Shown piece by piece: positions 14,868-28,840 of a stretch of DNA of 28,840 nt. Origin of the DNA: a virus; IMG/VR virus record IMGVR_UViG_3300007708_000021, positions 1 to 28,840 of that record, one strand, 5' to 3'. The notes below the pieces were generated by a model. The model was not told the DNA's origin, ran no database searches, and saw nothing but the letters and a program-made list of their open reading frames with translations. The translations under genes and the position numbers were made by a program. Positions within the stretch are counted from its first letter, which is position 1. Every line of letters starts with the position of its first letter.

Positions 14868-17800
14868 ATGGCTGAAATTAAAAATACTTTCTTACAATCC
14901 AAGATGAACAAAGACTTGGATGATAGATTAATACCGAATGGTCAATATAGAGATGCTTTAAATATTCAAATAGGCAAATCAGAGCAAGATGATATTGGCG
15001 CATTACAAAGCGTGTTAGGCAATAGTAGTCTGCCCATACCCGCTGACGACTCTGATTTAATCTGTATAGGGTTTTTTATGGACAACCAGAACAACCGTAT
15101 ATATAGATTCTTAACAAATTACATAGACGCAAATCCAAATTCAATAAATTACCCCGACGCAGCGGATAAGATGAAAATATCGGTATACGATATTAATTCA
15201 CAGACCTATACTACATTAGTAAGCGGGATATTTTTAAATTTTTCAGCTAATAACTCTTCATATATAAACGGGGTTAATTTAATTGAAAATTTATTATTCT
15301 GGACAGACAATAGAAATCAACCTAGAAAAATAAATGTAAATACAGCTTTAGTAAACCCGGGATATTATACAACTGAAACTCAAATTTCCGTAGCAAAATA
15401 TGCTCCGGTAGAACCTATATCTTTAATAAAAAAATCCGTAACTACGGTAACAAATGTAATCTCACCAAACGAAATAGAAGTGGATGATGCTACAGGTATT
15501 GTTGTTGGAATGACAATAATATCGGGAGCTATTGATTCTACTGAATTTGTTACAGTATATGAAGTTGCTGGAAATAATATTACGCTTTACCAAGACACAA
15601 CCCTAATTAACATTGGGGATACATTAACATTTTTAATCTCTACTATGACGGATCAATCTGGCGATGAAAATTGGCCCGGGGATCCAGATTTTCTTGAAGA
15701 TAAATATGTTAGATTTAGTTATATATTTAGATATGATGATGGAGAGTATTCATTAATGGCTCCATTTACACAGATTGCATATATCCCAAGACAAAAAGGT
15801 TATTTTATAAACGGTGACGAAACTGCTGCATATAGAAGTACAATTGTAAGGTGGATGGAAAATAATGTTAATAACATTGAGTTGTTAATCCCATTGCCTG
15901 ATAAAGGTTCAAATATAGTTAACTCGTATAAAATAACAGAACTTGATATTCTATATAAGGAATCTAATTCAAATGCTGTTAAAGTAATAGAGACAGTAAC
16001 GACGCAAAGGATAGCATCAGAATCACCAAATATAAATGTTTTTGTACGACCATACCAATCGCAAAAACCATATAAAACACTAACAGAAGATCAAACAACT
16101 CGGGTTACTGATATTGTACCAGTAAGGGCGCTTGCCCAAGAAGTTACAGGCAATAGAGTTATGTATGGTAATTATTATTCTACATATACAGCGCCTAGTT
16201 CTATCAACTATAATGTTACCGTAAGCCCTAAAACTTTTTATTTTACAAGCTTTATAGAATACCCAAATCATACTTTAAAACAAAATAGAAATTATCAAGT
16301 TGGTTTTATATTATCAGACAAATTTGGTAGACAATCACCTGTTATATTATCAACAGTAGATTTAACTACAGTTTCTGGTGGAGCAGTACCGACTTTATAT
16401 GGCGGATCAACCGTGTATGCACCTTATGTTAGCAAAGAAGCAGGTTATCCCCCTACTAGAGATTGGAATGGTAATGCATTATTGGTATTATTAAATAGCG
16501 TCATTACATCCACACGTAATATACCAAATGGAACACCAGGGTTATATGCTGAAGCAATTGGCGGCGTTGGTGGTTTTACTGTAAATGGTTTTTCGGTGGT
16601 AAATGGTAATGATTACCAATTTGTAATAGATAGTTCTGTTAGCAATAGTCCACCAAAAAAAGGTGATTATTTAAGAGGTGAGTATACGGACTACGTAGAG
16701 ATCACTGAATTAGAAACTTTTGGAGATTTGTATATATTAACAACTGACGGCCAGGCAAATAATTTATATAATTTAGACCTAGCTAATGATCCTGATATTA
16801 AATACGCTTATAGGTTAAATCCAATTGGGTGGTACTCGTATAAAATTGTAGTAAGGCAACAAGAGCAGGATTATTACAATGTTTATTTACCCGGCATGTT
16901 AAATGCTTACCCACTGAATCAGACATATGGTTCGCAAGTGGTATATATAGGCGATCCAACAACGCCTACATTGCAAAACGGAATAAATACATCTGATTTT
17001 CCGACAAATGAATTTAATAAAACAGCACATATTGTATTAATCAACGATAATATAAACAAAGTGCCTCGTGATTTAACAGAAGTTGGACCTGACCAAAAAC
17101 AATATCGAAGTAGTGTTGAATTGTTTGGTAGAGTAGAAAATGACGTAACATTGTTAACGTTTGAGGTTGATCCCGTTGTAGATGACCCTTCTGCTTCACA
17201 ATTTATTTATGATTCCGTAATGCTCCCAAATATATTCCCGCAAATAAGCGTGGGTGATGCAATAAATTATGAGTCACCGGAGCCTTGGTATGCAAATACC
17301 GTTATTACAGAAATATTAGAAGACACACCAACTGTTGGTAAATGTACAATAAAATTTTCACCTGATAATATTACCGTTGAAGACTTTGACACAATAAGCA
17401 TATTGCTTGGTAAAAACAAACAATATTATCCAACAAGAAAACCAGATACAGTATCATCGATTGCTAATTCAAGAGACTTTGATTTTTTACCAAACTCGGT
17501 TGAAAATATTATAGGTACTGCTGGTTTAAATTTATATCAATTACAAACGAACCCAATGATTGGCCGCGTTTCCACAATATCAGGTATTGGTATTGAGGGA
17601 CAATATATGGTGCCTTATCTTGGTGTTTATGAAACGCGTCCTGATGAATCTTTATTAGATTTGTTTTGGGAAACCGCAACAACAGGTTTAATATCAGATT
17701 TGAATTGGGATGTTTTAACTGGCTCAGATGCGCCTGTTGCTCTGAATGATTTTGAATATTTATTTTTTGAAGATCAAGATAAAAATGGTTCCGAGAGCGG

Positions 17801-20132
17801 GACAGGTGATGCTGACTCTCCGTATATAACAGAGAATATATATGCAATTAATAATTCAGGAGCACCTATAATAGCGACAGATGCTCAGATAGTGTCTGTT
17901 TTTGATAATTCAATTCCAGCAAACTCATGTGCTAGTCGTTTTGCAATCGAGCCAAGTGGGTTGGGTCAATTTAAAATAAAGATAGCTGATAGTTTTGTTT
18001 TTAATCATAATGCACTTACCGCTGGGTTATTTAATTTTGAAATACAGCTGCAATATAATGGCGTATGGTATCCATTTTCATTCCAAATACCGTTAGGGAA
18101 CCGAGCTCCAAGATTTACAAACGAACCTTTCGATAACACTATAAATAGAACAACAACTATTATAGAAACATTAACGGCAGTAAATGGATCTTTTACAAAT
18201 GCTACCACTGATTTATATTGGGAAATAACAAGCGGTAATGACGAAGGTTATTTTGCTATAAATGATTATACAGGAGAATTTTCATTAATTCGTTCCGACA
18301 TACCAAATGGAATATATACTATTGGTGCGTCTGTAACGGATGCAGTTGATTTTACACAAGTTCCGCCATTAAAACTAAACGGGGTTGGAGCATTTCAAAG
18401 CCTAACTGATACCACAACTTTTACTATAGTTGTAGTTGGCGACCCATTAACTCCTTGCCTAAGAGATTTTGATTCAGATGTATTATGTTATCAAAATAGC
18501 CCTTATGGTAGGAGCAGTTCTTGGACGTACGATAATATTCCGAAAGGTTTTGGTGCTGTTTATGTTGGTAAAAAGGACATAATGCCATTAGCAGACGGTA
18601 TTACATGGCCCGATTTACCAAATTGTCCATTAAATGGTCAAAAATACCAGAACGCAATGAATGTTGCAAAAGCAAATGGGTGCACTACACTAACTGGGCT
18701 AACGCAGGGTACTATGCGCTGGGATGTTGAATATCAGGTTGGGATCAGCGATACCACACAGGGGCCTAATTGTATTGGTTCTATTAGATATGAAAGTATA
18801 TGGACGGGCGGCAGAGTTAGAACAATTTTATGGTATAGAGAAAATGAAAATGCAGTATGGCAAACAGCTACTGATGACAACGGATTTAACTGTTCTATAG
18901 AATCAGACCCGCCAATCTCAACGGGATTCAGCGGAGCTAAAAACATGTGGAGCTATAATACACCCATGCGATTAGAGCTTAGGCAAGCAATTCAGCCCCG
19001 AGATGACTTACGTCAACCAGGTGATATTTACACGGGAAGTATTATAGTAAGAAGTTTTTCTTTTTTTACTTCAGAACCCGGTGAGTATTGTTTATGCGTT
19101 TATGAGGAGGATATGAGTGGAGACTCCCTTGGCCAACTTGGAGCAGCATGCTATAGCCCGAATGGCATAGGGCCATTCGCACGAGTTAAAATTAGTGATG
19201 CAAATTTTACATATCCATTAGGGGTTCAAACTAGAACAGCCTATAAATATAATTTAAGATTATCAGAGCCATTTGATAATAATCCAACCGCTTTAGCTTC
19301 TAATCAACAAGTTTCAAATAAAGGCCAAATTGCTTGGGGAGGAGGGGCGCCCGACGCTGCTCCTTTGTATGAATTTGAACTTGAATTAACAGTTAAAGAA
19401 GATCAAGTAGAGCCAGATAAAGTAGTTGTCACACAAGCCAGTTTGGATGCAATACAACCCGCATTATTAGTGCCTGGAGTTAGATGTATAAACGATGACC
19501 ATATAAACCCGGGTACTGTAAGAAAAATAGCAAATATATCAGGCACAACTATAACATTTGATGGTAATACTGATTCTTATTTTTTAACCGGCGATATAAT
19601 TACTGCAACATATAATACGCTTGAAGTTGAGACCGAAGTTTGGTCTGATAGCGCAGACGGTATTAATGTAAAACAATTTTACACAGGTCCCGATATGCTT
19701 GTCTCATGGGAGCCACCTATGGCAGATAAATTTTACACCTTTAGGAAAATGGATCGTGATTACAATTTAGGAGACCATCCTAACGAATTTACGTATCAAA
19801 TGACCTCCACGCGCGTTTCATCATACGTAATGAGTAACCCTTTTTGGACAGCAAAATTTGATATAAACGGAAAAGTAATACCTATTTCCCAATCAAACCC
19901 TCCTAGGTATATCGGAGGTGGAACGGGTCTTGGTTCAATATCGGCAGGGGGTAATACCGTTAATATAGTAACTTGTTATCCTTTATCAAATTTTTACAGT
20001 CCAAATCGCCCAAATCCATCTCAAGCAAGATATGGCTATGATGCTCAAAATCTCACCGAAACATATACACAAACGGGTGGTTATTATGCGGCTAATTTAA
20101 CATTGGACTTAAATTATGTTCCGGCTCCATAG
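14868..20132 (+). CDS. Giant tail hub/tail stabilisation protein with cadherin-like repeat
   Basis: This 1754-residue protein starts KNTFLQSKMNKDLDDRLIPN then GQYRDALNIQIGKSEQDDIG. It resembles the front of P22 gp10-like tail stabilisation/hub proteins in crAss-like phages. Residues about 190-258 hold an inserted beta module (GIVVGMTIISGAIDS, VYEVAGNNITLY, GDTLTFL). Around 1085-1190 a cadherin-like repeat is visible: APRFTNEPF, then WEITSGNDEGYFAINDYTGE, then GIYTIGASVTD. A further module lies near 1524-1585 (ISGTTITFDGN, FLTGDIITATY). No signal peptide or transmembrane helix is seen. The size suggests the hub plus extended, possibly receptor-facing, arms. The next gene appears to encode the rest of the hub/nozzle. 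Hub assignment is by remembered family pattern; the cadherin-like call is from the motif. Confidence 0.75.
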   Translation: MAEIKNTFLQSKMNKDLDDRLIPNGQYRDALNIQIGKSEQDDIGALQSVLGNSSLPIPADDSDLICIGFFMDNQNNRIYRFLTNYIDANPNSINYPDAADKMKISVYDINSQTYTTLVSGIFLNFSANNSSYINGVNLIENLLFWTDNRNQPRKINVNTALVNPGYYTTETQISVAKYAPVEPISLIKKSVTTVTNVISPNEIEVDDATGIVVGMTIISGAIDSTEFVTVYEVAGNNITLYQDTTLINIGDTLTFLISTMTDQSGDENWPGDPDFLEDKYVRFSYIFRYDDGEYSLMAPFTQIAYIPRQKGYFINGDETAAYRSTIVRWMENNVNNIELLIPLPDKGSNIVNSYKITELDILYKESNSNAVKVIETVTTQRIASESPNINVFVRPYQSQKPYKTLTEDQTTRVTDIVPVRALAQEVTGNRVMYGNYYSTYTAPSSINYNVTVSPKTFYFTSFIEYPNHTLKQNRNYQVGFILSDKFGRQSPVILSTVDLTTVSGGAVPTLYGGSTVYAPYVSKEAGYPPTRDWNGNALLVLLNSVITSTRNIPNGTPGLYAEAIGGVGGFTVNGFSVVNGNDYQFVIDSSVSNSPPKKGDYLRGEYTDYVEITELETFGDLYILTTDGQANNLYNLDLANDPDIKYAYRLNPIGWYSYKIVVRQQEQDYYNVYLPGMLNAYPLNQTYGSQVVYIGDPTTPTLQNGINTSDFPTNEFNKTAHIVLINDNINKVPRDLTEVGPDQKQYRSSVELFGRVENDVTLLTFEVDPVVDDPSASQFIYDSVMLPNIFPQISVGDAINYESPEPWYANTVITEILEDTPTVGKCTIKFSPDNITVEDFDTISILLGKNKQYYPTRKPDTVSSIANSRDFDFLPNSVENIIGTAGLNLYQLQTNPMIGRVSTISGIGIEGQYMVPYLGVYETRPDESLLDLFWETATTGLISDLNWDVLTGSDAPVALNDFEYLFFEDQDKNGSESGTGDADSPYITENIYAINNSGAPIIATDAQIVSVFDNSIPANSCASRFAIEPSGLGQFKIKIADSFVFNHNALTAGLFNFEIQLQYNGVWYPFSFQIPLGNRAPRFTNEPFDNTINRTTTIIETLTAVNGSFTNATTDLYWEITSGNDEGYFAINDYTGEFSLIRSDIPNGIYTIGASVTDAVDFTQVPPLKLNGVGAFQSLTDTTTFTIVVVGDPLTPCLRDFDSDVLCYQNSPYGRSSSWTYDNIPKGFGAVYVGKKDIMPLADGITWPDLPNCPLNGQKYQNAMNVAKANGCTTLTGLTQGTMRWDVEYQVGISDTTQGPNCIGSIRYESIWTGGRVRTILWYRENENAVWQTATDDNGFNCSIESDPPISTGFSGAKNMWSYNTPMRLELRQAIQPRDDLRQPGDIYTGSIIVRSFSFFTSEPGEYCLCVYEEDMSGDSLGQLGAACYSPNGIGPFARVKISDANFTYPLGVQTRTAYKYNLRLSEPFDNNPTALASNQQVSNKGQIAWGGGAPDAAPLYEFELELTVKEDQVEPDKVVVTQASLDAIQPALLVPGVRCINDDHINPGTVRKIANISGTTITFDGNTDSYFLTGDIITATYNTLEVETEVWSDSADGINVKQFYTGPDMLVSWEPPMADKFYTFRKMDRDYNLGDHPNEFTYQMTSTRVSSYVMSNPFWTAKFDINGKVIPISQSNPPRYIGGGTGLGSISAGGNTVNIVTCYPLSNFYSPNRPNPSQARYGYDAQNLTETYTQTGGYYAANLTLDLNYVPAP

Positions 20133-20172
20133 TAATTTATTAAAAACAATTAAAAACAAGTAATTATAAAAT

Positions 20173-21747
20173 ATGGCCGCAGTATTAGAACTAAAATATT
20201 TTAACTCATTCTGGTTGAAGAAAATGCAATCCATTACCTACGTAAAAAATACTACGGGGGTATTGGATGGAGCTGTAACTACCGATACTTTGGTTTTAAC
20301 AGAAGCAAATGATTTTATAGGCGTTGGGCAACAAGTAACAGGTGATCCAACGAGTGGTATAACTACAAATCCATCTCCTGTTGTTGTATACGTAAATGGC
20401 GCAACTATTACGTTAGATACGCCTCAGTCTATTGCGGATGGAGAAGAATTAACATTTGGGCCTATAACTAACTTTGATCATATACCCGCGGCTTATGAAT
20501 CAACACTTCCGGAAGGAACAGATTGGTACATTGAAGAAGCAAGGATTAGAGGTGGGTATAACAATACTATTGTTGATTTAGGCGTAAAAGCTTATATAGT
20601 TGAAGACATCAATGGGCAGCAATACCGTGGAAGTTCAATTATATACTCTGGTATTTATAATTCCAGAACTGGTGTAAATAATACAAATCAATTTTCTACC
20701 GCGCAAGACATAACAAAAAGTGTTGATCCATCTAATGGAACAATTCAAAAATTATATTCAGAAAATACAAATTTAATTATATTCCAAGAATCAAAAGTAA
20801 ATCAGGCGTTGATTGATAAGAATGCAGTTTACTCTGCTGATGGGCAACCAATGACAACTTCTGGTGGATTAGTGATAGGGCAAATACAAGCATACGCTGG
20901 TAACTATGGAATATCAACTAACCCAGAAAGTTTTGCTGTTTACGGATATAGAAAATACTTTGTGGATAGAAATCAAAATGCAGTACTAAGATTATCACAA
21001 GATGGCATAACTGAAATATCTGCTTATGGTATGTTGGATTATTTTAGAGATAATTTGTCTGCAATTAGTAATAGCGGCCGAATAGTTGGAATGTGGGACA
21101 TGCATAATAAGCAATATTTACTATCAATGCAACCCCTTGAAAATACCTCCGGTCAAAAGCCTACTCCCGCCCAGTCTATAACAGTTGCTTTTGATGAAGA
21201 CATCAATGGTTGGACAAGTAGATTTTCATTTAAACCAGAACTTGGCGGAAGTTTAAGAAATAATTTTTACACTTTTAAATCTGGTGGTATATGGGAACAT
21301 TATTCAACCGCTGTTAATAAGGGTACATTTTATAATGTTACTACAAATTCAACAGTTACTCTTGTATTTAATGCTTCGGCTTCAGAGGTTAAGAATTTTA
21401 GTACATTAAATTATGAAGGCACGACTGGTTGGGAATTGATTTCTTTGGAAACAGACACAGACACATCTGTGCCCGTGCAACCGTTTTCTCAAACATACAA
21501 TTTAGCAAGCATAGAAAACCAATTGTTTTCAAATAACTTTAAACGAAAAGAAAACAAGTACTTTGCAAACATTATGAATAATTCACCAGCCGGTAGCGGA
21601 GATGTTGTTTGGGGCCAATCTATGACAGGAATAAAAGGTTTTTATGCAATAGCAAACCTACAAATAAATAACTCAACATATGGGTCGCCATCAAACAGGG
21701 CTGAGTTGTTTGCGGTATCAACTGAATATGTAAATTCATCATACTAA
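20173..21747 (+). CDS. Tail hub/nozzle protein
   Basis: This 524-residue beta-rich protein carries the pattern WYIEEARIRGGYNNTIVDLG, IIYSGIYNSRTGVNNTNQFS, KLYSENTNLIIFQESKVNQA and YGYRKYFVDRNQNAVLRLSQ. It continues with ISAYGMLDYFRDNLS, GRIVGMWDMHNKQYLLSMQ and TLNYEGTTGWELIS. I recognise this as the tail nozzle/hub (stabilisation) protein type of Bacteroidota podoviruses and crAss-like phages, a toroidal beta-propeller-like tube. Residues about 30-97 are an inserted module (VVVYVNGATITLDTPQSIAD, then GEELTFGP) like the one in the preceding giant protein. The last codons overlap the next ATG by one base. The short 40-base gap before it is A/T-only in character, with a repeated ttaaaaacaa. Confidence 0.78.
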   Translation: MAAVLELKYFNSFWLKKMQSITYVKNTTGVLDGAVTTDTLVLTEANDFIGVGQQVTGDPTSGITTNPSPVVVYVNGATITLDTPQSIADGEELTFGPITNFDHIPAAYESTLPEGTDWYIEEARIRGGYNNTIVDLGVKAYIVEDINGQQYRGSSIIYSGIYNSRTGVNNTNQFSTAQDITKSVDPSNGTIQKLYSENTNLIIFQESKVNQALIDKNAVYSADGQPMTTSGGLVIGQIQAYAGNYGISTNPESFAVYGYRKYFVDRNQNAVLRLSQDGITEISAYGMLDYFRDNLSAISNSGRIVGMWDMHNKQYLLSMQPLENTSGQKPTPAQSITVAFDEDINGWTSRFSFKPELGGSLRNNFYTFKSGGIWEHYSTAVNKGTFYNVTTNSTVTLVFNASASEVKNFSTLNYEGTTGWELISLETDTDTSVPVQPFSQTYNLASIENQLFSNNFKRKENKYFANIMNNSPAGSGDVVWGQSMTGIKGFYAIANLQINNSTYGSPSNRAELFAVSTEYVNSSY

Positions 21748-22220
21748 TGACAAATGAAATTCAATTAAATATAGAGAATAGAATAATAGACAAAGACTTT
21801 ATTAGCAAAGTCACTGCGCTTGAACAAGAAATGTTAAACAGCGATCTTCCTGGTATAGTTAAAGGGGACTCTGACAGTTTTCCATTAAAGCATTCTTTTG
21901 CGGACGGGATATATATTAGAGAACTTTTTGCTAGCAAAGGATCACTTGTTATTGGAAAAATACATAAGTTTAACCATACTTGGTTTTTGCTTAGTGGCGA
22001 ATTAGAAATAGCCACAGATCAAGGAATTAATCACTATATTGCGCCTTGTTACATTAATGCACCAGGTGGTACAAAAAGAGTAGTGCATGTAGTAGAGGAT
22101 TCTGTTTTTGTTAACGTTTATCCAAATCCTAATAATACAACTGATTTAATTGAACTGGAAGAAATGATTATTTCTCCGTCTTTTGAAGAATATGAAAAAT
22201 ATAAACTTTTAAAAAAATAA
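21747..22220 (+). CDS. Cupin-fold protein
   Basis: This 157-residue protein has a central cupin (double-stranded beta-helix) pattern. It reads FADGIYIRELFASKGSLVIG, then KIHKFNHTWFLLSGELEIAT, then IAPCYINAPGGTKRVVHVVE and DSVFVNVYPNPNN. Candidate metal ligands are H73 and H77 (an HxxxH rather than HxH arrangement), E85 and H114, equivalent to the two classical cupin motifs. Related proteins appear in tail regions of many tailed phages, from memory, but no reaction is established. It is translationally coupled to the tail nozzle gene and lies 3 bases before the internal virion gene, so it is probably made with the virion proteins. A structural adaptor role and an enzymatic role are both possible. 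Confidence 0.75.
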   Translation: MTNEIQLNIENRIIDKDFISKVTALEQEMLNSDLPGIVKGDSDSFPLKHSFADGIYIRELFASKGSLVIGKIHKFNHTWFLLSGELEIATDQGINHYIAPCYINAPGGTKRVVHVVEDSVFVNVYPNPNNTTDLIELEEMIISPSFEEYEKYKLLKK

Positions 22221-22223
22221 TAT

Positions 22224-23231
22224 ATGGCATGGGTAGGAACAGCAGTTGCAGCGGTTGGCGTTGTCGGAAGTGTCGTTAATGGCATAAATGCTCAAAATGC
22301 GGCTGATAGAATGGCTAACGCCTCTGCGGCGGAAAGAGCAAGATTAGAAGCGGAGATAGCTGCATTTGAAAAAAATAGACAGGCTATCATAAACCCGTAT
22401 GCTAGTTTTACTAATCTTAGTGGGTTGGCAAAAGATTTATCTGGAATGATTAGCAATCCATACGCAAATTTAGGTGTTGCAACTCAAGCCGCTAAATTTG
22501 AAGCAGAGGAAATTGATTTGTCATTAGCAAACACATTAGATACATTAAGGGAGACAGGATCAAGTGCTGGTGGAGCAACCGCATTAGCTATGGCGGCTTT
22601 AAAAAGCAAGCAAGGTATTTCAGCTAGTATTGAGCAACAAGAGGCTCAAAATGAAAAATTACGCGCACAAGGTCAACAGCAATTAGATCAAATGAAAATG
22701 GCTGAAGCGCAAAGAATACAAAACTTACAAATAACCGAGGCGCAAAGATTGCAACAGGCAGGAGCTGCTGGCAAACAATTCATGTGGGAAAGTCAAGAGG
22801 AAAGAGATAAGGTTAAGCTAGATAGATTATCGGGATTGTCTGACTTTGCTGCAAATCAAGAAGCGCAAGCTAATTCTGATAGCATGGCTGCAATGACTGG
22901 TATGATTGGCGGAATTACTAGTTCCTTAGCAGCTGGGGCATCAGCTTATGCAGCTGGCGGAAGCGGAGGGGGTGGTGATGATTCATGGGATGAATTTGCG
23001 ATGTATGAAGATTCAGATAGACGTCTTAAGAAAAATATAAAAAACATAGGTATTTCCCCAACGGGAATAAATATTTATTCTTTTGAATATAAAGACCAGA
23101 ATCTTGGTAAAGGCATTTTCCAAGGCGTTATGTCTGATGAAATCCCATTAAAAGCAATAATTAAAGGAGATAATGGATATGATAAAGTAAATTACTCTAT
23201 GCTTGACGTAGAATTTAAACAAATACAATAA
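22224..23231 (+). CDS. Probable internal virion protein with C-terminal S74-type domain
   Basis: This 335-residue protein opens with a small hydrophobic helix (VGTAVAAVGVVGSVVNGINA). A long Ala/Gln/Glu-rich helical region follows (about 25-215, e.g. EAQRIQNLQITEAQRLQQAG), then a Gly-rich linker (AAGGSGGGGDD, 243-253). Such small, Ala-rich helical proteins after tail genes are often ejection proteins. The last 72 residues form an S74-type intramolecular chaperone domain starting S264-D-R-R-L-K-K-N-I, then TGINIYSFEYKDQNLGKGIF, FQGVMSDEI and NGYDKVNYSMLDVEF. In known S74 domains the Ser of the SD pair is the self-cleavage point, and the domain usually trimerises fibre proteins. Here it is attached to a helical protein, which is odd. 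Cleavage after residue 263 is predicted, not shown. Confidence 0.75.
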   Translation: MAWVGTAVAAVGVVGSVVNGINAQNAADRMANASAAERARLEAEIAAFEKNRQAIINPYASFTNLSGLAKDLSGMISNPYANLGVATQAAKFEAEEIDLSLANTLDTLRETGSSAGGATALAMAALKSKQGISASIEQQEAQNEKLRAQGQQQLDQMKMAEAQRIQNLQITEAQRLQQAGAAGKQFMWESQEERDKVKLDRLSGLSDFAANQEAQANSDSMAAMTGMIGGITSSLAAGASAYAAGGSGGGGDDSWDEFAMYEDSDRRLKKNIKNIGISPTGINIYSFEYKDQNLGKGIFQGVMSDEIPLKAIIKGDNGYDKVNYSMLDVEFKQIQ

Positions 23232-23235
23232 TAAT

Positions 23236-24771
23236 ATGTCATACGCAAATCCACAAAGACAAGTTATATCAAATGCGCCGGCATTCCAAAATTTACAACA
23301 GGATATAACATCTGCTGTAAATACCGTAGCAAGTGCCGTGATTAAACGAGCAGACCAAGATCGAGAAGATCGAAAAAATAAAGAACTTCAAGAATTTAAA
23401 GAATACAAAGAACTATTTGCTGCAAGTACAGGTGCAAGTCAAAATTTCACAGACTCCACATTAAAAGTCCAGAATGAAAGCAAATATCGTGTTGACCTTA
23501 CTTCCGATGCAATCGCGGGTAAAGCATTAATTTTTGGGGAATCAATGAAAATTAAACCTTATGCTGATCCTAAAGAATTAGCTTTATCGCAGGAAGTTAT
23601 TGGGCAAGTAAATGCCTATCCTGGCGTTGTTGCAAAAGGACTTTCTCTTTTAGCTGGTAATATTGAAACAACGACTACCGGTATGAAAAATAATAGAATG
23701 TCGTCATTAATAACTGACAATCCTACCAATAATAATAAAGCTTTAATAATAGTTAGCACTGGAAATCCTGAAAGCGGAAATATTACCGTTGACAGAAGCA
23801 CCGGATGGAATAATCCAACATATGTGATTGACGCTGTGGATCCAATAACAAAAGAAAAAGTCCAAGGTAGATACCTTCATTCCGACTTAACAAAAGCAGA
23901 AACTTATGGAGGCATAATGCAATTAGTTCCCGATCCTAATATTAGTTTAGAATCCACTAAAAAAAGAATGCCTGGTGTATTTAAAGTAATTGAAACCGCT
24001 GGAAAAAATGGAGAGACAACAAAAGAAACAGATGGTTCTGTTTTACCACAATTTTTAGATTTAGCTAATGCTAAACCTGATCCAAGTAATCAAACCACTG
24101 TTGAGAGTTTAGACGGTAAAACATTATTGAAGAAAGGTATAATGGTTGCTACTGTTAATAAAGATGCAATTGCAAAAAGTTCAGACTTTATAGCCTCCAC
24201 TGACGCAACCGCGGAGGGTATACTAACTAATTTTAACGAAGCCTACTCTCTAAACAATGATATAATGTCAAAAGTCTTAGGTGATGGCGCAAAACTAACT
24301 AAACCGGCTGAGGGCATTACAGACGAATGGAAAGATAAATTTAAAGAAAACTGGAAAGCTTATGTTTTAAAAAATATTCCAGACACACAGCCAATTAAAA
24401 ATGAGGCTGGCGAATTTGTAACAGAAACAATTAAAGCTGAAAAAGCAAAAGGCGGCGGCGGTGCCGGGGGAGCTGGCGGTTCGGGTAAAACAAACACAAG
24501 GGAAGAACAAATAGCTGTAAATCTTTCAATAGCAAATAGTGGTACAGCAGGTGATATAATTAATCCATTGAATAAGAATCAAAAGTTTGCTAAGGATAAA
24601 GACGGCAAATGGGTTGAATATGTGAAAGAATCACCCGGGGCAGGGTTTGCTGCTGAATGGACTGAAAAAAGAGGCAAAGGAAGAGAGTGGGAAACCATTG
24701 ACGGTTTAAAACAAGCTCATCCAGAACTCTTTAGAAATTTAGCTAAACCAGGATTGCCAAGAAAAAAATAA
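23236..24771 (+). CDS. Probable internal virion (ejected cargo) protein
   Basis: This 511-residue protein has a helical N-terminus (NLQQDITSAVNTVASAVIKR, then ADQDREDRKNKELQEFKEYK) followed by a mixed alpha/beta region to about residue 400. A Gly/Ala linker (KGGGGAGGAGGSGK, about 405-418) connects to a small C-terminal domain with WVEYVKESPGAGFAAEW and KRGKGREWETIDGLKQAHPE. No enzyme signature, signal peptide or transmembrane segment is seen. It sits between the S74-bearing protein and the giant open frame at 24792, the usual location for proteins packed in the head or tail lumen and ejected with DNA. I do not recognise a named family, so the role is inferred from position and architecture only. 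Confidence 0.65.
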   Translation: MSYANPQRQVISNAPAFQNLQQDITSAVNTVASAVIKRADQDREDRKNKELQEFKEYKELFAASTGASQNFTDSTLKVQNESKYRVDLTSDAIAGKALIFGESMKIKPYADPKELALSQEVIGQVNAYPGVVAKGLSLLAGNIETTTTGMKNNRMSSLITDNPTNNNKALIIVSTGNPESGNITVDRSTGWNNPTYVIDAVDPITKEKVQGRYLHSDLTKAETYGGIMQLVPDPNISLESTKKRMPGVFKVIETAGKNGETTKETDGSVLPQFLDLANAKPDPSNQTTVESLDGKTLLKKGIMVATVNKDAIAKSSDFIASTDATAEGILTNFNEAYSLNNDIMSKVLGDGAKLTKPAEGITDEWKDKFKENWKAYVLKNIPDTQPIKNEAGEFVTETIKAEKAKGGGGAGGAGGSGKTNTREEQIAVNLSIANSGTAGDIINPLNKNQKFAKDKDGKWVEYVKESPGAGFAAEWTEKRGKGREWETIDGLKQAHPELFRNLAKPGLPRKK

Positions 24772-24791: not shown

Positions 24792-27700
24792 ATGAAGTTA
24801 TACAAAAGCACCGAAGGATACGAATATACAGAAGATGAAGTACTAACAGCGGCTAAAGAAAGCAACATGTCTATTGATGACTATATTGTTGAATTTGGAA
24901 TAACGCCATCTACTCAAGGTGAGCCGGGAAAGAAAAAACCTGTTGCGGAAAAGGGTGCACCTGCAACAGGGAAAGCAAAAAGTACGGCATCCAAGCCGGC
25001 ACCTACTTCTTCGGCTTCCAGAAAGAAACTATTTAAAGAAGAAGCTCAACCGCAAACGCAAGCTGATGGAACTTTTGTTGCAAAACCAAAAATACTAAAA
25101 CCCAAAGTAGCAAAAGAACCTACAATAAAGGAAAAAGTAGAAGAGGGTAAACAAATTTTGCAAGAAGCAAAAGAAATAAACAAACCAAAACGCGAATTAA
25201 AAGCTAAAATATCATTGCCTTCAGAAGAAGATATTTTAGATATATCAACAAATGTTCAGGGTGTTGAATATGATAAATTAGAACCTGAAGAAAAATTATA
25301 TGTAGACAATAAATCTGCAGACATATTGCAAAAAGCTTATGGTGAAGGCGCTGAATATGATTTATCGCCATCGGAGATAGAGTTAAAATCAAGAGAGATA
25401 TTATCCAAAGCAAAACAAACAAAGAAAACAATTGAAGATGAATCTTATACGAGTAAATTACTCAATGTAGATCTTCTAAAAGGTTTAAATTATTTAGGTG
25501 AAGCATTTGCTTCTGTACCTGAAACTATTTATAATGTTTTTTCTTTGCCTCAAAATGCCTATGCTGCCATATCTGGGAATAAAGACTGGGCAGAGAGCGC
25601 TAAACAATTTAAAAAAGAAAGAGGAATAGAAAATCCCATAATGGATAATTTTATTGCCGAACAGGAGCGTCTTGGCAAGATGCAAACTATATATAACAAT
25701 GCGAACTACGATTCAACTAGCATAACAGAAAATATCGGCGATGGTAATTATGTTGATGCTTTTAAATTAATGGGTAGTGGTTTAGCAGAAAGTGCCCCTA
25801 TGAGTATAGCCATGATGGCTGGTGGTGCAGAATTAAAATTAGCAGAATTAGCGGCAGGATCAACAGCATTACTAGCCGGTCCAAATATAAGACAACAAGA
25901 AGAGGAAAACCCAGAGCAATCAGAATTAGCTTCTGTTATTAAAGGATTTGGAATGGCTGGAGCAGAAAGTGTTTTTTCAGCAATTGGAGAAGGTAGTCTT
26001 GGTAAAGTATATAAGGATATAATCAAGAAGGAAGGGGCTGAAGTAGGTTCTAAAATATTTAAAGACGGATTAGTTACCATGTACCAATCCGCTCTTAAAA
26101 AGTTTGGCGCACCAGCTGCAATGCTTGGCGAGGGTATTGAGGAGGTAGCTACTACCATTACTCAAAACATGATTAACAACAAGAATCCTTTTGAAGGTGC
26201 CTTAGACTCTTTTGCTTTAGGCGTTGGTGGTGGTGGATTATATGGATCCCCACTAACTATAGCTAAAGGCATAAGTGGTTTTAAAGACGGTGTAACCGTA
26301 CATAAAATAAATAAACAGTTAAAAACTGAAAATATAAATAATTTAGTTACTGCATTTAAACCTGAATTTCAATCAAGTCCAGCTAAAATAAAGGCAGCAA
26401 TAATACCAGGTTCTATTAAAATACTTGATAATCAAGTTGACACATCCGTTAATAACGGGGATATGACCGTGGAAGAAGGCGATAAAATTAAATTAAATTT
26501 TAGACAAACCCAGGGCATAGTGAATGCTTTGCAACCACTAAAATTATCTGATGAAGATTTGCCGGCCGCGGTTGATTTAATAAAGGAAAAAAAGCAACTT
26601 GAAGAAGTTGTTAAGAAAGTTGGTGATCCAAATTTAACAGTAGAGCAAGGTAATAGAATAAAAGAAATAAATACCGCTTTAACAGGTATTGGCGAAAGCA
26701 ATACAAAGAAGAAATCAGCAGAGAATGTAGTTAAGCTAGAAGGTAACATAGCGGCATTAGAAGGTTTTGCTAATACCTTGGGACAAACAGAATTTGAAAA
26801 CGCTATTGGTGAAGGAAAAGGCGTTGAAGCCTTTAATACCGTGGAGGAATTTAAAGTTGCATTGGAAAGCGTTGGTCTTAAGGAAGACTTTATAGCCGAC
26901 GCAATGACTTCTGATGGTTTCATGCTACCCAATGGCCAAATTGTAATTAACAAGCAAATTGCCGCGCAGAGTAATCTGAACACAATGGGCCACGAGTTAT
27001 TACATAAAATTTTAAAGTCAGAATTTAGTGATCCAGTTAAAGGAGCAAAATTAAAAGATCAATTTTTAGAACAATTAACAACTGAAGAAAGATCACTATT
27101 AGATGAGCGTATACTTGCTGTTGATAAAAGCGGTAAAAGATTATACTCTGATGAAGATTTAATTGCTGCGCCGGATGAATACATTACACAATATTTTCAA
27201 ATTATAGCGGATAAAAAAATACCTTGGTCCGAAAAACTAGGGGATTCATTGGAAAGATTATGGAAGAACTTCCTTGGTAAATTTTTTAAAGACAAGGGAT
27301 ATAATAACCTTGAATTTGCAGATGGTAAAGATATTTATAGATTTATAAATGACTATGCCAAGTCTATTAAATCAGGTAAGCTATCACAGCGAGCCCAAGA
27401 TTTAACAAAAGCCGGAGTAAGCACTAAGAAAGCCACTGTTGCTTCTAAATCTATTCAGGAAAAGATGGATGCTCTTGATGAGCAATTAAATAATGATGAG
27501 ATCGATTACGATACTTACGAAGTACGAATGGATGCTCTTGTAAAAGAGGAAGAAAAAGTTTTAAAAGCGAACAAAGAAGGCGAGGTCGCAGAAGAGAAGC
27601 CAAAAGAAGCTAAAAAAGAAACGCCAGAAGATGAGGCAAAATCCGTTATTACAAACAATAAAGGATTGGTAGCTTCAGATAAAGTGCAAAAAATTTACGA

Positions 27701-28840
27701 TACTGAAGGCGTTAATGGTGCTCAAAAAATTATAGATTTATTTAGACCTATTACCTCTAAAATTGTTGACAAAAGAAGAGATGCCCCTGGGTTTGATAAA
27801 GAGTTGTTAACAGACGAAATTGAAACTGGAATTGGTGGTATATTAGACCTTATTCAAAAATACAAACCTGAATCTGGTATTCCTTTGGCTGCTTATATAA
27901 ATAAGTATTTACCTGTAAGAGCAATTGCTACTTCAAGAAGAATATTAGGTGAAACATTCAGCAAAGATATTGAAGACCAAAAAGGATTAATGGCAACTGA
28001 AACAGCTGATCAATTTACGGAGACAGCAATGCCCGATAAACCTAAATATAAAACAATACTTGAAAGCAATGTTTTTGATCAAGAGGTTATAAAATCGGTT
28101 ACAGATAAATTAAAAATAGTTTTACGTACATTAAAGAGTAAAATTAACGAACCTATTTCTAAAAATACAACGGTTACGCCCCTTGTAAATGAGATACGTA
28201 ATGAGATGGGTACACAAGCTGACATCGATATTAAAAGAGCTTTAGGCGGAAAAGAAGGTGGTGTATTAAAAAATAATTTAATAAGAAACAAAAGAGCCAT
28301 TCTTGAGAACATGACCACTACATGGTTAATGGGTAAAGATACTAAAGGCGGAGTGCAAGGGGGTGTTCCGTCTGCTATTCAGAAGCAAGTTAACGGTAGA
28401 TGGGTATCATATCCTGATTGGGTGGGTCAAAAAATAGACCGTGAGAAAACAACAACTAATCTTGCTGGTAAAACATCAGGAGCAGAGATCGTAAGAAGAC
28501 TCCCTAACGCAGCGAATAATATATCTAATGAGGAATTCTTAAGTTGGTTTTTGGAGCCGTCTGGCAACCCCATACGCGGCCGTAAAGAGTCTTTATCTAA
28601 AGCATTAGGTGAAGAATTATCTTTTGATATATTCAAAAAAGAATTAGAAGAGGGCGGTGAGATAGCTAAAGTATTTGAAAGAAATCAAGAACTTAAGGAT
28701 GTAGTATTATTAGATACTTATATCAATGAAGTTGCAAAACAAATTGATAGAGGTACCGTTAAGTTTTCTAAGTCAACAAAAGATGAGTTAGAATACAACA
28801 TGAAGATTGCGGATAGTCAAGGTGGTGCTTCATTAATGGA
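24792..28840 (+). CDS. Giant virion-associated polyvalent protein, 3' end outside window
   Basis: From ATG 24792 the frame stays open for 1349 codons to the window edge. An in-frame TAA at 24786 rules out an earlier start. The N-terminus is KLYKSTEGYEYTEDEVLTAA, then SIDDYIVEFGI, a short helical motif that recurs at the front of large phage virion proteins as far as I recall. A Lys/Pro/Ala-rich disordered stretch follows (about 38-130). Gly/Ala-rich, weakly hydrophobic helices lie near 335-365 and 475-500. A zinc metallopeptidase motif is at H734-E-L-L-H738 (GHELLHKIL), with a possible third ligand E796 in PDEYITQYF. Residues about 960-1065 are helical and sigma-factor-like (LDLIQKYKPESGIPLAAYIN, then KYLPVRAIATSRRILGE). 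This fits polyvalent proteins ejected into the host. Later domains cannot be seen. Confidence 0.8.
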   Translation, partial: MKLYKSTEGYEYTEDEVLTAAKESNMSIDDYIVEFGITPSTQGEPGKKKPVAEKGAPATGKAKSTASKPAPTSSASRKKLFKEEAQPQTQADGTFVAKPKILKPKVAKEPTIKEKVEEGKQILQEAKEINKPKRELKAKISLPSEEDILDISTNVQGVEYDKLEPEEKLYVDNKSADILQKAYGEGAEYDLSPSEIELKSREILSKAKQTKKTIEDESYTSKLLNVDLLKGLNYLGEAFASVPETIYNVFSLPQNAYAAISGNKDWAESAKQFKKERGIENPIMDNFIAEQERLGKMQTIYNNANYDSTSITENIGDGNYVDAFKLMGSGLAESAPMSIAMMAGGAELKLAELAAGSTALLAGPNIRQQEEENPEQSELASVIKGFGMAGAESVFSAIGEGSLGKVYKDIIKKEGAEVGSKIFKDGLVTMYQSALKKFGAPAAMLGEGIEEVATTITQNMINNKNPFEGALDSFALGVGGGGLYGSPLTIAKGISGFKDGVTVHKINKQLKTENINNLVTAFKPEFQSSPAKIKAAIIPGSIKILDNQVDTSVNNGDMTVEEGDKIKLNFRQTQGIVNALQPLKLSDEDLPAAVDLIKEKKQLEEVVKKVGDPNLTVEQGNRIKEINTALTGIGESNTKKKSAENVVKLEGNIAALEGFANTLGQTEFENAIGEGKGVEAFNTVEEFKVALESVGLKEDFIADAMTSDGFMLPNGQIVINKQIAAQSNLNTMGHELLHKILKSEFSDPVKGAKLKDQFLEQLTTEERSLLDERILAVDKSGKRLYSDEDLIAAPDEYITQYFQIIADKKIPWSEKLGDSLERLWKNFLGKFFKDKGYNNLEFADGKDIYRFINDYAKSIKSGKLSQRAQDLTKAGVSTKKATVASKSIQEKMDALDEQLNNDEIDYDTYEVRMDALVKEEEKVLKANKEGEVAEEKPKEAKKETPEDEAKSVITNNKGLVASDKVQKIYDTEGVNGAQKIIDLFRPITSKIVDKRRDAPGFDKELLTDEIETGIGGILDLIQKYKPESGIPLAAYINKYLPVRAIATSRRILGETFSKDIEDQKGLMATETADQFTETAMPDKPKYKTILESNVFDQEVIKSVTDKLKIVLRTLKSKINEPISKNTTVTPLVNEIRNEMGTQADIDIKRALGGKEGGVLKNNLIRNKRAILENMTTTWLMGKDTKGGVQGGVPSAIQKQVNGRWVSYPDWVGQKIDREKTTTNLAGKTSGAEIVRRLPNAANNISNEEFLSWFLEPSGNPIRGRKESLSKALGEELSFDIFKKELEEGGEIAKVFERNQELKDVVLLDTYINEVAKQIDRGTVKFSKSTKDELEYNMKIADSQGGASLM

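Follow-up and report, generated by a model that had tools for sequence, protein, structure and literature searches.

S74 domains are known from fibres, whose folding they assist before cutting themselves off. The motif SDxxxK stands at the domain start in endoNF, GA-1 gp12 (PDB 3GUD), Bdellovibrio Bd3182 and the S74/ICA domain of MyRF, and sections of PMC10769870 place the cut at the Ser of this motif. For MyRF, parts of PMC8326128 give S587 and K592 as the catalytic residues, attribute the ICA trimer mainly to a C-terminal helix, and state that cleavage needs the trimer.

A second group of described systems concerns ejection and cargo proteins. T7 gp14 and P22 gp7 are small proteins (about 200 aa), Ala/Gln-rich and with a hydrophobic N-terminus; in these respects they resemble, by analogy, the protein described below, but they are without S74. 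In phiCrAss001 gp44, which we take to be the muzzle protein (stabilization protein in the GenBank record), is followed by gp45 (C1) and gp46 (C2). According to parts of PMC10172136, mass spectrometry identifies C1 and C2 as cargo, C1 is resolved in head and tail, and a role of the two in building the ejection channel is expected. The gp45 protein is 842 aa long, and the article has 0 occurrences of S74.

The combination of the two is already known, in that two GenBank records note S74 on such proteins. Pseudoalteromonas phage H6/1 gp17 is named 'putative ejection protein' with pfam13884 in the record note, and Sulfitobacter phage phiGT1_17, also with S74 in its record note, directly precedes two putative injection proteins. 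Both have, like the protein studied here, a short C-terminal S74 on a putative ejection or structural protein located directly before further ejection proteins; unlike the phage studied here, H6/1 and phiGT1 are not crass-like. In the open-access literature on S74 or endosialidase chaperones together with ejection or internal virion proteins, the arrangement is absent among the matches listed, and for crass together with S74 all matches listed are off subject. The term 'S74' is also absent from the main text of an ejection-protein review (PMC8954989).

The window, i.e. the whole stretch of DNA that was analysed (28,840 nucleotides of IMG/VR record IMGVR_UViG_3300007708_000021), is a fragment of a crass-like phage; its terminase is 64.8% identical to that of MW202828 and 44.9% to those of the Flavobacterium elemo phages, and its portal and capsid match PHROGs. 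Its gene order, a 524-aa muzzle-domain protein followed by ORFs of 157, 335 and 511 aa, parallels that of gp44, gp45 and gp46 in phiCrAss001, with the 335-aa ORF at the position of gp45. The features are as follows.

20173..21747, plus strand: 524-aa protein with the crassvirus muzzle C-terminal domain (PF25729, 28.7 bits, cut-off 27; phrog_14478)
22224..23231, plus strand: 335-aa ORF, helical C1-position virion protein with a C-terminal S74 domain (from gene order relative to phiCrAss001 and body homology)
22224..22295, plus strand: N-terminal hydrophobic segment, residues 1-24 (Kyte-Doolittle windows up to 1.67; model confidence is low there)
22269..22928, plus strand: helical body with predicted helices at 16-50, 79-111 and 115-235 (AlphaFold2 model, DSSP)
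22884..22952, plus strand: Gly/Ala-rich segment, residues 221-243, weakly hydrophobic (one window of 1.21)
22959..23012, plus strand: linker, residues 246-263, with a Gly-rich start, not conserved (alignment with loci L001 and L002)
23013..23231, plus strand: short S74/ICA domain, residues 264-335, and the stop codon (profile, tblastn, model)
23013..23030, plus strand: SDRRLK, with predicted catalytic Ser264 and Lys269 and the expected cut directly before Ser264 (motif SDxxxK)
23236..24771, plus strand: 511-aa ORF at the C2 position

The 511-aa ORF has no match in Pfam or PHROG, and its C2 label is by position alone, because homologues of gp46 are missing in some crass groups (parts of PMC10172136).

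The initial annotation placed an S74 domain at 23013-23231, and this holds with exact coordinates: codon 264 (Ser) begins at 23013 and the stop codon finishes at 23231. Matches by family profile, tblastn and BFVD fold are beyond chance. The window's copy scores 15.7 bits (E 0.018, whole ORF) against Pfam PF13884 and 19.2 bits when the domain is used alone, in both cases under the curated cut-off of 22 bits; PF13884 is matched at E<=0.01 by 61 of the 70 members of a diverse domain alignment, at best with 8.8e-12. A tblastn search with the domain retrieves a phage 'putative ejection protein' (E=5e-7). An AlphaFold2 model of the domain alone has a mean pLDDT of 85.5 and matches predicted viral proteins in BFVD with a probability of 1.00; the top entry (TM 0.92) is unnamed, and those labelled 'Intramolecular chaperone auto-processing domain' match at TM 0.72-0.82. 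Among solved structures, a sequence search gives four matches, the best being a weak one to 3GUD (GA-1 neck appendage chaperone, E=0.07) and two of the remaining three unrelated decapping proteins, while the domain model retrieves no S74 chain with either Foldseek (best E 1.8, a kinase) or VIA-align (best Z 2.8). The lack of a match among the solved structures does not point to a new fold, as BFVD gave clear matches. Residues 264-335 are thus a short-form S74/ICA homologue on an Ala/Gln-rich helical protein.

In contrast to the fibre and MyRF ICA systems, the carrier in the window is helical and not a beta-helical fibre, the domain has 72 residues, and cleavage is here a prediction from sequence. 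In the model the domain finishes in a strand and has no C-terminal coiled-coil helix like that of the characterised ICA domains. The short form is general. We call a carrier helical type when the part upstream of the domain is 120 residues or longer and contains 20% or more Ala+Gln. Among 102 distinct helical-type sequences, the distance from Ser to the C-terminus is at most 95 residues in 101 (median 71). In the set used here, a match from position 1 was required of any domain detected by the full S74 profile alone, a rule that biases towards an intact Ser; the same set supplied the helical-type counts and the invariant positions given below. Characterised trimerising ICA/CIMCD domains have a triple coiled-coil helix and a beta-helical or fibrous stalk; judging from the model, the window protein appears to have neither. 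As the C-terminal helix is absent, we do not file the domain under these chaperones. The same absence tells against the initial annotation in its suggestion that the S74 domain itself may drive oligomerisation, the helix being what trimerises the ICA domain of MyRF. Trimerisation by the S74 domain itself is therefore doubtful.

Two further features had been pointed out in the domain and its surroundings. An MSDE core was regarded as unusual compared with MAQE; it turns out to be the norm of the family, as this column is Ser in 78 and Ala in 23 of 101 helical-type domains, and the following column is Asp in 95 of the 101. A Gly-rich linker is indeed present, but it is not conserved, and the relative L001 has PPPPPP there. 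Neither the linker nor the MSDE core distinguishes the window protein from its relatives.

The carrier was said to look like an ejection protein. This is in agreement with its predicted helices, its C1 position and a homologue known from MS/MS, while homology to T7 gp14 and P22 gp7 is not detected. The whole AlphaFold2 model of the 335-aa protein has a mean pLDDT of 73.9 and a pTM of 0.32; residues 1-20 and 229-262 are modelled with low confidence. A profile of the body matches a four-phage profile, built from the syntenic genes of Cellulophaga phi40:1 and phi13:2, Flavobacterium elemo and Tenacibaculum Gundel_1, with an hhalign probability of 96.7%. Against single sequences, phi40:1 gp099 reaches 90.0% and Gundel_1 83.8%, and the copies of elemo (1.3%) and phi13:2 (0.4%) alone are not detected. 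No homology is detected in the same comparison to phiCrAss001 gp45 (14.1%), T7 gp14 (0.2%) or P22 gp7 (3.0%), with shuffled controls at 0.0-0.6%, and the body of H6/1 gp17 (0.4%) has no detectable relation to that of the window. When the body profile is searched against eight named proteins, phi40:1 gp099 is the sole match. This protein is a structural protein by MS/MS (note in its record) and shares both gene position and a homologous body with the window's ORF; it differs in having 200 aa, compared with 335, and no S74.

The best PHROG match of the ORF is a head-and-packaging structural protein; its hits include PHROG 6121, a family of virion structural proteins (2.9e-6), and PHROG 1980, a tail-fibre family (6.6e-5). 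PHROG 6121 is also hit by 35 of 77 relatives; DNA-ejection families are hit by two of the 77 and tail-fibre families by five, and the five beside the two count against reading the protein as an ejection protein. Taken together, the ORF encodes the minor virion protein at the C1 position of a crass-like phage, and this protein is most likely helical with an ejection (cargo) role. The label 'ejection protein' is a fair inference, and a location of the body inside the particle is quite probable.

Next, we studied the catalytic motif. Relatives were scanned three times, using the best 80 of 164, of at least 275 and of at least 319. In the last scan the first eight residues of the domain were left out of the alignment, so that it was blind to the motif. 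Nevertheless, the S, D and K of SDxxxK are kept in 80 of these 80 loci, a conservation that speaks for the nearer relatives. The neighbouring positions vary: among the 67 distinct sequences from the 80 loci, R3 is found in 59, R4 in 57, L5 in 63, K7 in 52 and N8 in 61. The residue preceding Ser is free, with 16 kinds among 103 proteins. However, in 70 diverse domains, fibre types included, Y22, G38, E43 and Y61 are as invariant as S1, D2 and K6, so the conservation of the motif may be structural.

The lengths of the proteins are also informative. The stretch upstream of Ser is 251 residues long in the median (quartiles 238-266.5, n=41), and complete orthologues without S74 have a median length of 246 (quartiles 239-271, n=61; Mann-Whitney p=0.83). 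Further, the Gly/Ala-rich segment at residues 221-243 corresponds to the C-terminal end of many S74-less relatives. Cleavage would thus leave a protein of ordinary length. The match fits removal of the domain, and a plain add-on as well. Overall, we judge cleavage to be somewhat the likelier outcome.

The working that we infer, from internal location and oligomer to cleavage and its timing, would be as follows. The 335-aa protein would be made as a precursor, and its subunits would be brought together by the helical body and not by the S74 domain; should cleavage occur, the carrier would probably supply the oligomer, because the domain lacks a trimerising helix. The SDxxxK site would be activated in that oligomer and cut directly before Ser264, and the mature body would then end like the S74-less relatives. 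Until then, the attached domain may help the Gly/Ala-rich C-terminal segment stay in solution, or restrain assembly. The trimming of P22 gp7 at its N-terminus by a host protease (note in its record) offers a parallel case in which a first ejection protein is matured by proteolysis. We consider the chances of this whole chain, in which the domain is a removable assembly aid and cleaves in front of Ser264 after the carrier oligomerises, to be about even. The motif kept in 80 of 80 loci while positions 3, 4, 5, 7 and 8 vary is counted in its favour, as are the gene order shared with phiCrAss001, the body homology to gp099, the length match, the purifying selection on the domain and the free residue preceding Ser. 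Against cleavage we count that MyRF without its trimer-making helix stays uncut (parts of PMC8326128), and that the window's domain has no such helix.

The absence of this helix is also what gives weight to the most serious alternative, that S74 does not cut and is instead retained as a small beta domain by which the protein is docked within the particle, with the portal as one conceivable site. A compact domain of phiCrAss001 gp45 (residues 425-552) docks in this way, and S74 is optional, just as other C-terminal tails of the C1-position gene are. On the other hand, a pure docking domain would not need the Ser and Lys that are kept despite their variable neighbours, and we regard docking as rather unlikely.

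It is clear that the domain is not a fixed part of the protein. In a sample chosen regardless of S74 (the best 80 of 164 loci by muzzle similarity), the body profile detects a C1-position gene in 76 of 80 loci, and 72 of the genes are complete. S74 is carried by 8 of these 72 genes beside the muzzle, where L036 nearly duplicates L037, L056 nearly duplicates L057 and L013 is the contig of L001, and the other 64 are without it, which is counted against the removable aid. A muzzle tree with 100 rows (38 S74-bearing, 62 S74-less) needs at least 12 gains or losses of S74, of which 11 are forced by well supported branches; the tree was built by a quick method and has long branches, and as it mixes muzzle-found loci with S74-found ones (S74-enriched), its S74 share is no frequency.

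Close pairs show how the exchange looks. L002, which is 84% identical to the window protein over residues 1-232, has a short tail in place of S74, and its next gene begins 28 bases after the C1-position gene. L036 and L041 share 91% identity over 2,201 bases that reach about 700 bases into the gene, are then dissimilar until about 20 bases before the gene end, and from there on are 79% identical. The same two-sided pattern is seen for L036 and L038, and in a weaker form for L055 and L059, while for L030 and L038 as well as L017 and L020 similarity is absent downstream of the gene. The S74 domain therefore behaves as an optional cassette, and some close pairs represent a clean C-terminal swap.

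A second S74 on a fibre of the same genome was sought as a source of the domain in 30 records, some possibly fragments. The 18 records taken as S74-bearing (17 with a helical carrier and the fibre-like L199) give exactly one match each. Among the 12 records taken as S74-less, nine have no match, two have weak ones (E ~2e-6; reading frames 766 and 1242 aa long) and one is borderline (E 0.005). In L107 (4320-8067), the ORF that lies 17 bases past the muzzle ORF bears S74 and is low in Ala and fibre-like, and an S74-less, weakly C1-like ORF (23 bits) follows about 2 kb beyond. This arrangement is a possible route for domain transfer between fibre and C1 genes.

Such transfer, together with the patchy distribution on the muzzle tree, could also mean that S74 is a passenger, copied by recombination from a fibre gene and of little use to its carrier. 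In line with this, among S74-bearing rows the distances of S74 follow the muzzle distances less (r=0.37) than those of the body do (r=0.68). The constraint on the domain counts against this reading. Between the window and L001, dN/dS is 0.22 for the domain (dN 0.149, dS 0.68) and 0.066 for the body (dN 0.084, dS 1.28), i.e. the domain evolves faster in this close pair; over all S74-bearing rows the domain diverges less (median 0.32) than the body (median 0.51). Among the pairs listed, dN/dS of S74 is below 1, the highest being 0.605 at dS 0.05. The domain thus appears to be under purifying selection, and with SDxxxK retained in all 80 loci as well, a passenger is improbable.

In general, the S74 plan is found on more than one type of protein. 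The fetched loci contain 126 distinct S74-bearing sequences, of which 102 are helical type, 19 fibre-like and 5 too short upstream. Compared with the body profile, 41 of the 102 score at least 100 bits, 19 score 20-100 and 42 score below 20, so many S74 carriers are other proteins. The same plan also recurs beyond the crass-like phages: besides H6/1 gp17 and phiGT1_17, it is seen in Salmonella SeKF_80, a 'DNA ejection protein', and in Sulfitobacter, Rhizobium and Pseudomonas phages. That the C1-position protein is instead external, protruding from the tail and served by S74 as fibres are, is very improbable, since the body is predicted to be helical without a beta stalk, the gene order agrees with the cargo genes of phiCrAss001 and the top PHROG match is to head and packaging, even if the same S74 subtype occurs on the 19 low-Ala, fibre-like proteins, the tail-fibre PHROG matches weakly and the hypervariable C-terminus resembles fibre tips.

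A different placement of the domain is seen in L011 (4173-7730, MW202675.1), the only record of 27 that covers most of the junction. Here a 1185-aa 'internal virion protein D' has an internal S74 domain (SDRRLKHD), about 276 residues from the start and about 840 before the end; cutting would split the protein in two.

If the short, motif-conserved S74 acts on probable ejection-machinery proteins as a removable assembly aid, the same device would control a different kind of assembly, and it would do so without the helix thought necessary for cutting. Going one step further, the minimal S74, having no trimerising helix itself, might be an assembly timer that senses the carrier oligomer, cuts itself off during assembly and frees a membrane-active C-terminal segment, so that the channel protein inserts only after ejection, with the cassette gained and lost; this extension is speculative and rather unlikely. 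As cultured phages with the arrangement exist (H6/1 and phiGT1), the question is directly testable.

A few minor observations concern the surroundings of the gene. The 157-aa ORF between the muzzle and the C1-position gene (21747-22220) is cupin-like by eye and matches no Pfam family at E<=0.1. Some relatives have the C1-position gene directly after the muzzle. The muzzle domain is on a separate ORF of 524 aa after one of 1754 aa (14868-21747), where phi40:1 and phiCrAss001 have one long ORF, and the window matches PHROG 14478 (1474 positions) only at 927-1257. MW202828 and phi13:2 have separate ORFs of 267 and 241 aa that by eye are similar to such a split muzzle. Downstream, an ORF of at least 1349 aa (24792-28838), open at the window's end, contains a GHELLH motif and is metallopeptidase-like by eye, with no Pfam family above its cut-off. 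At the other end (2-630), the end of GroEL and a GroES-like ORF are recognised by eye, and MW202828 and the elemo phages have annotated GroEL/GroES near the corresponding structural module.
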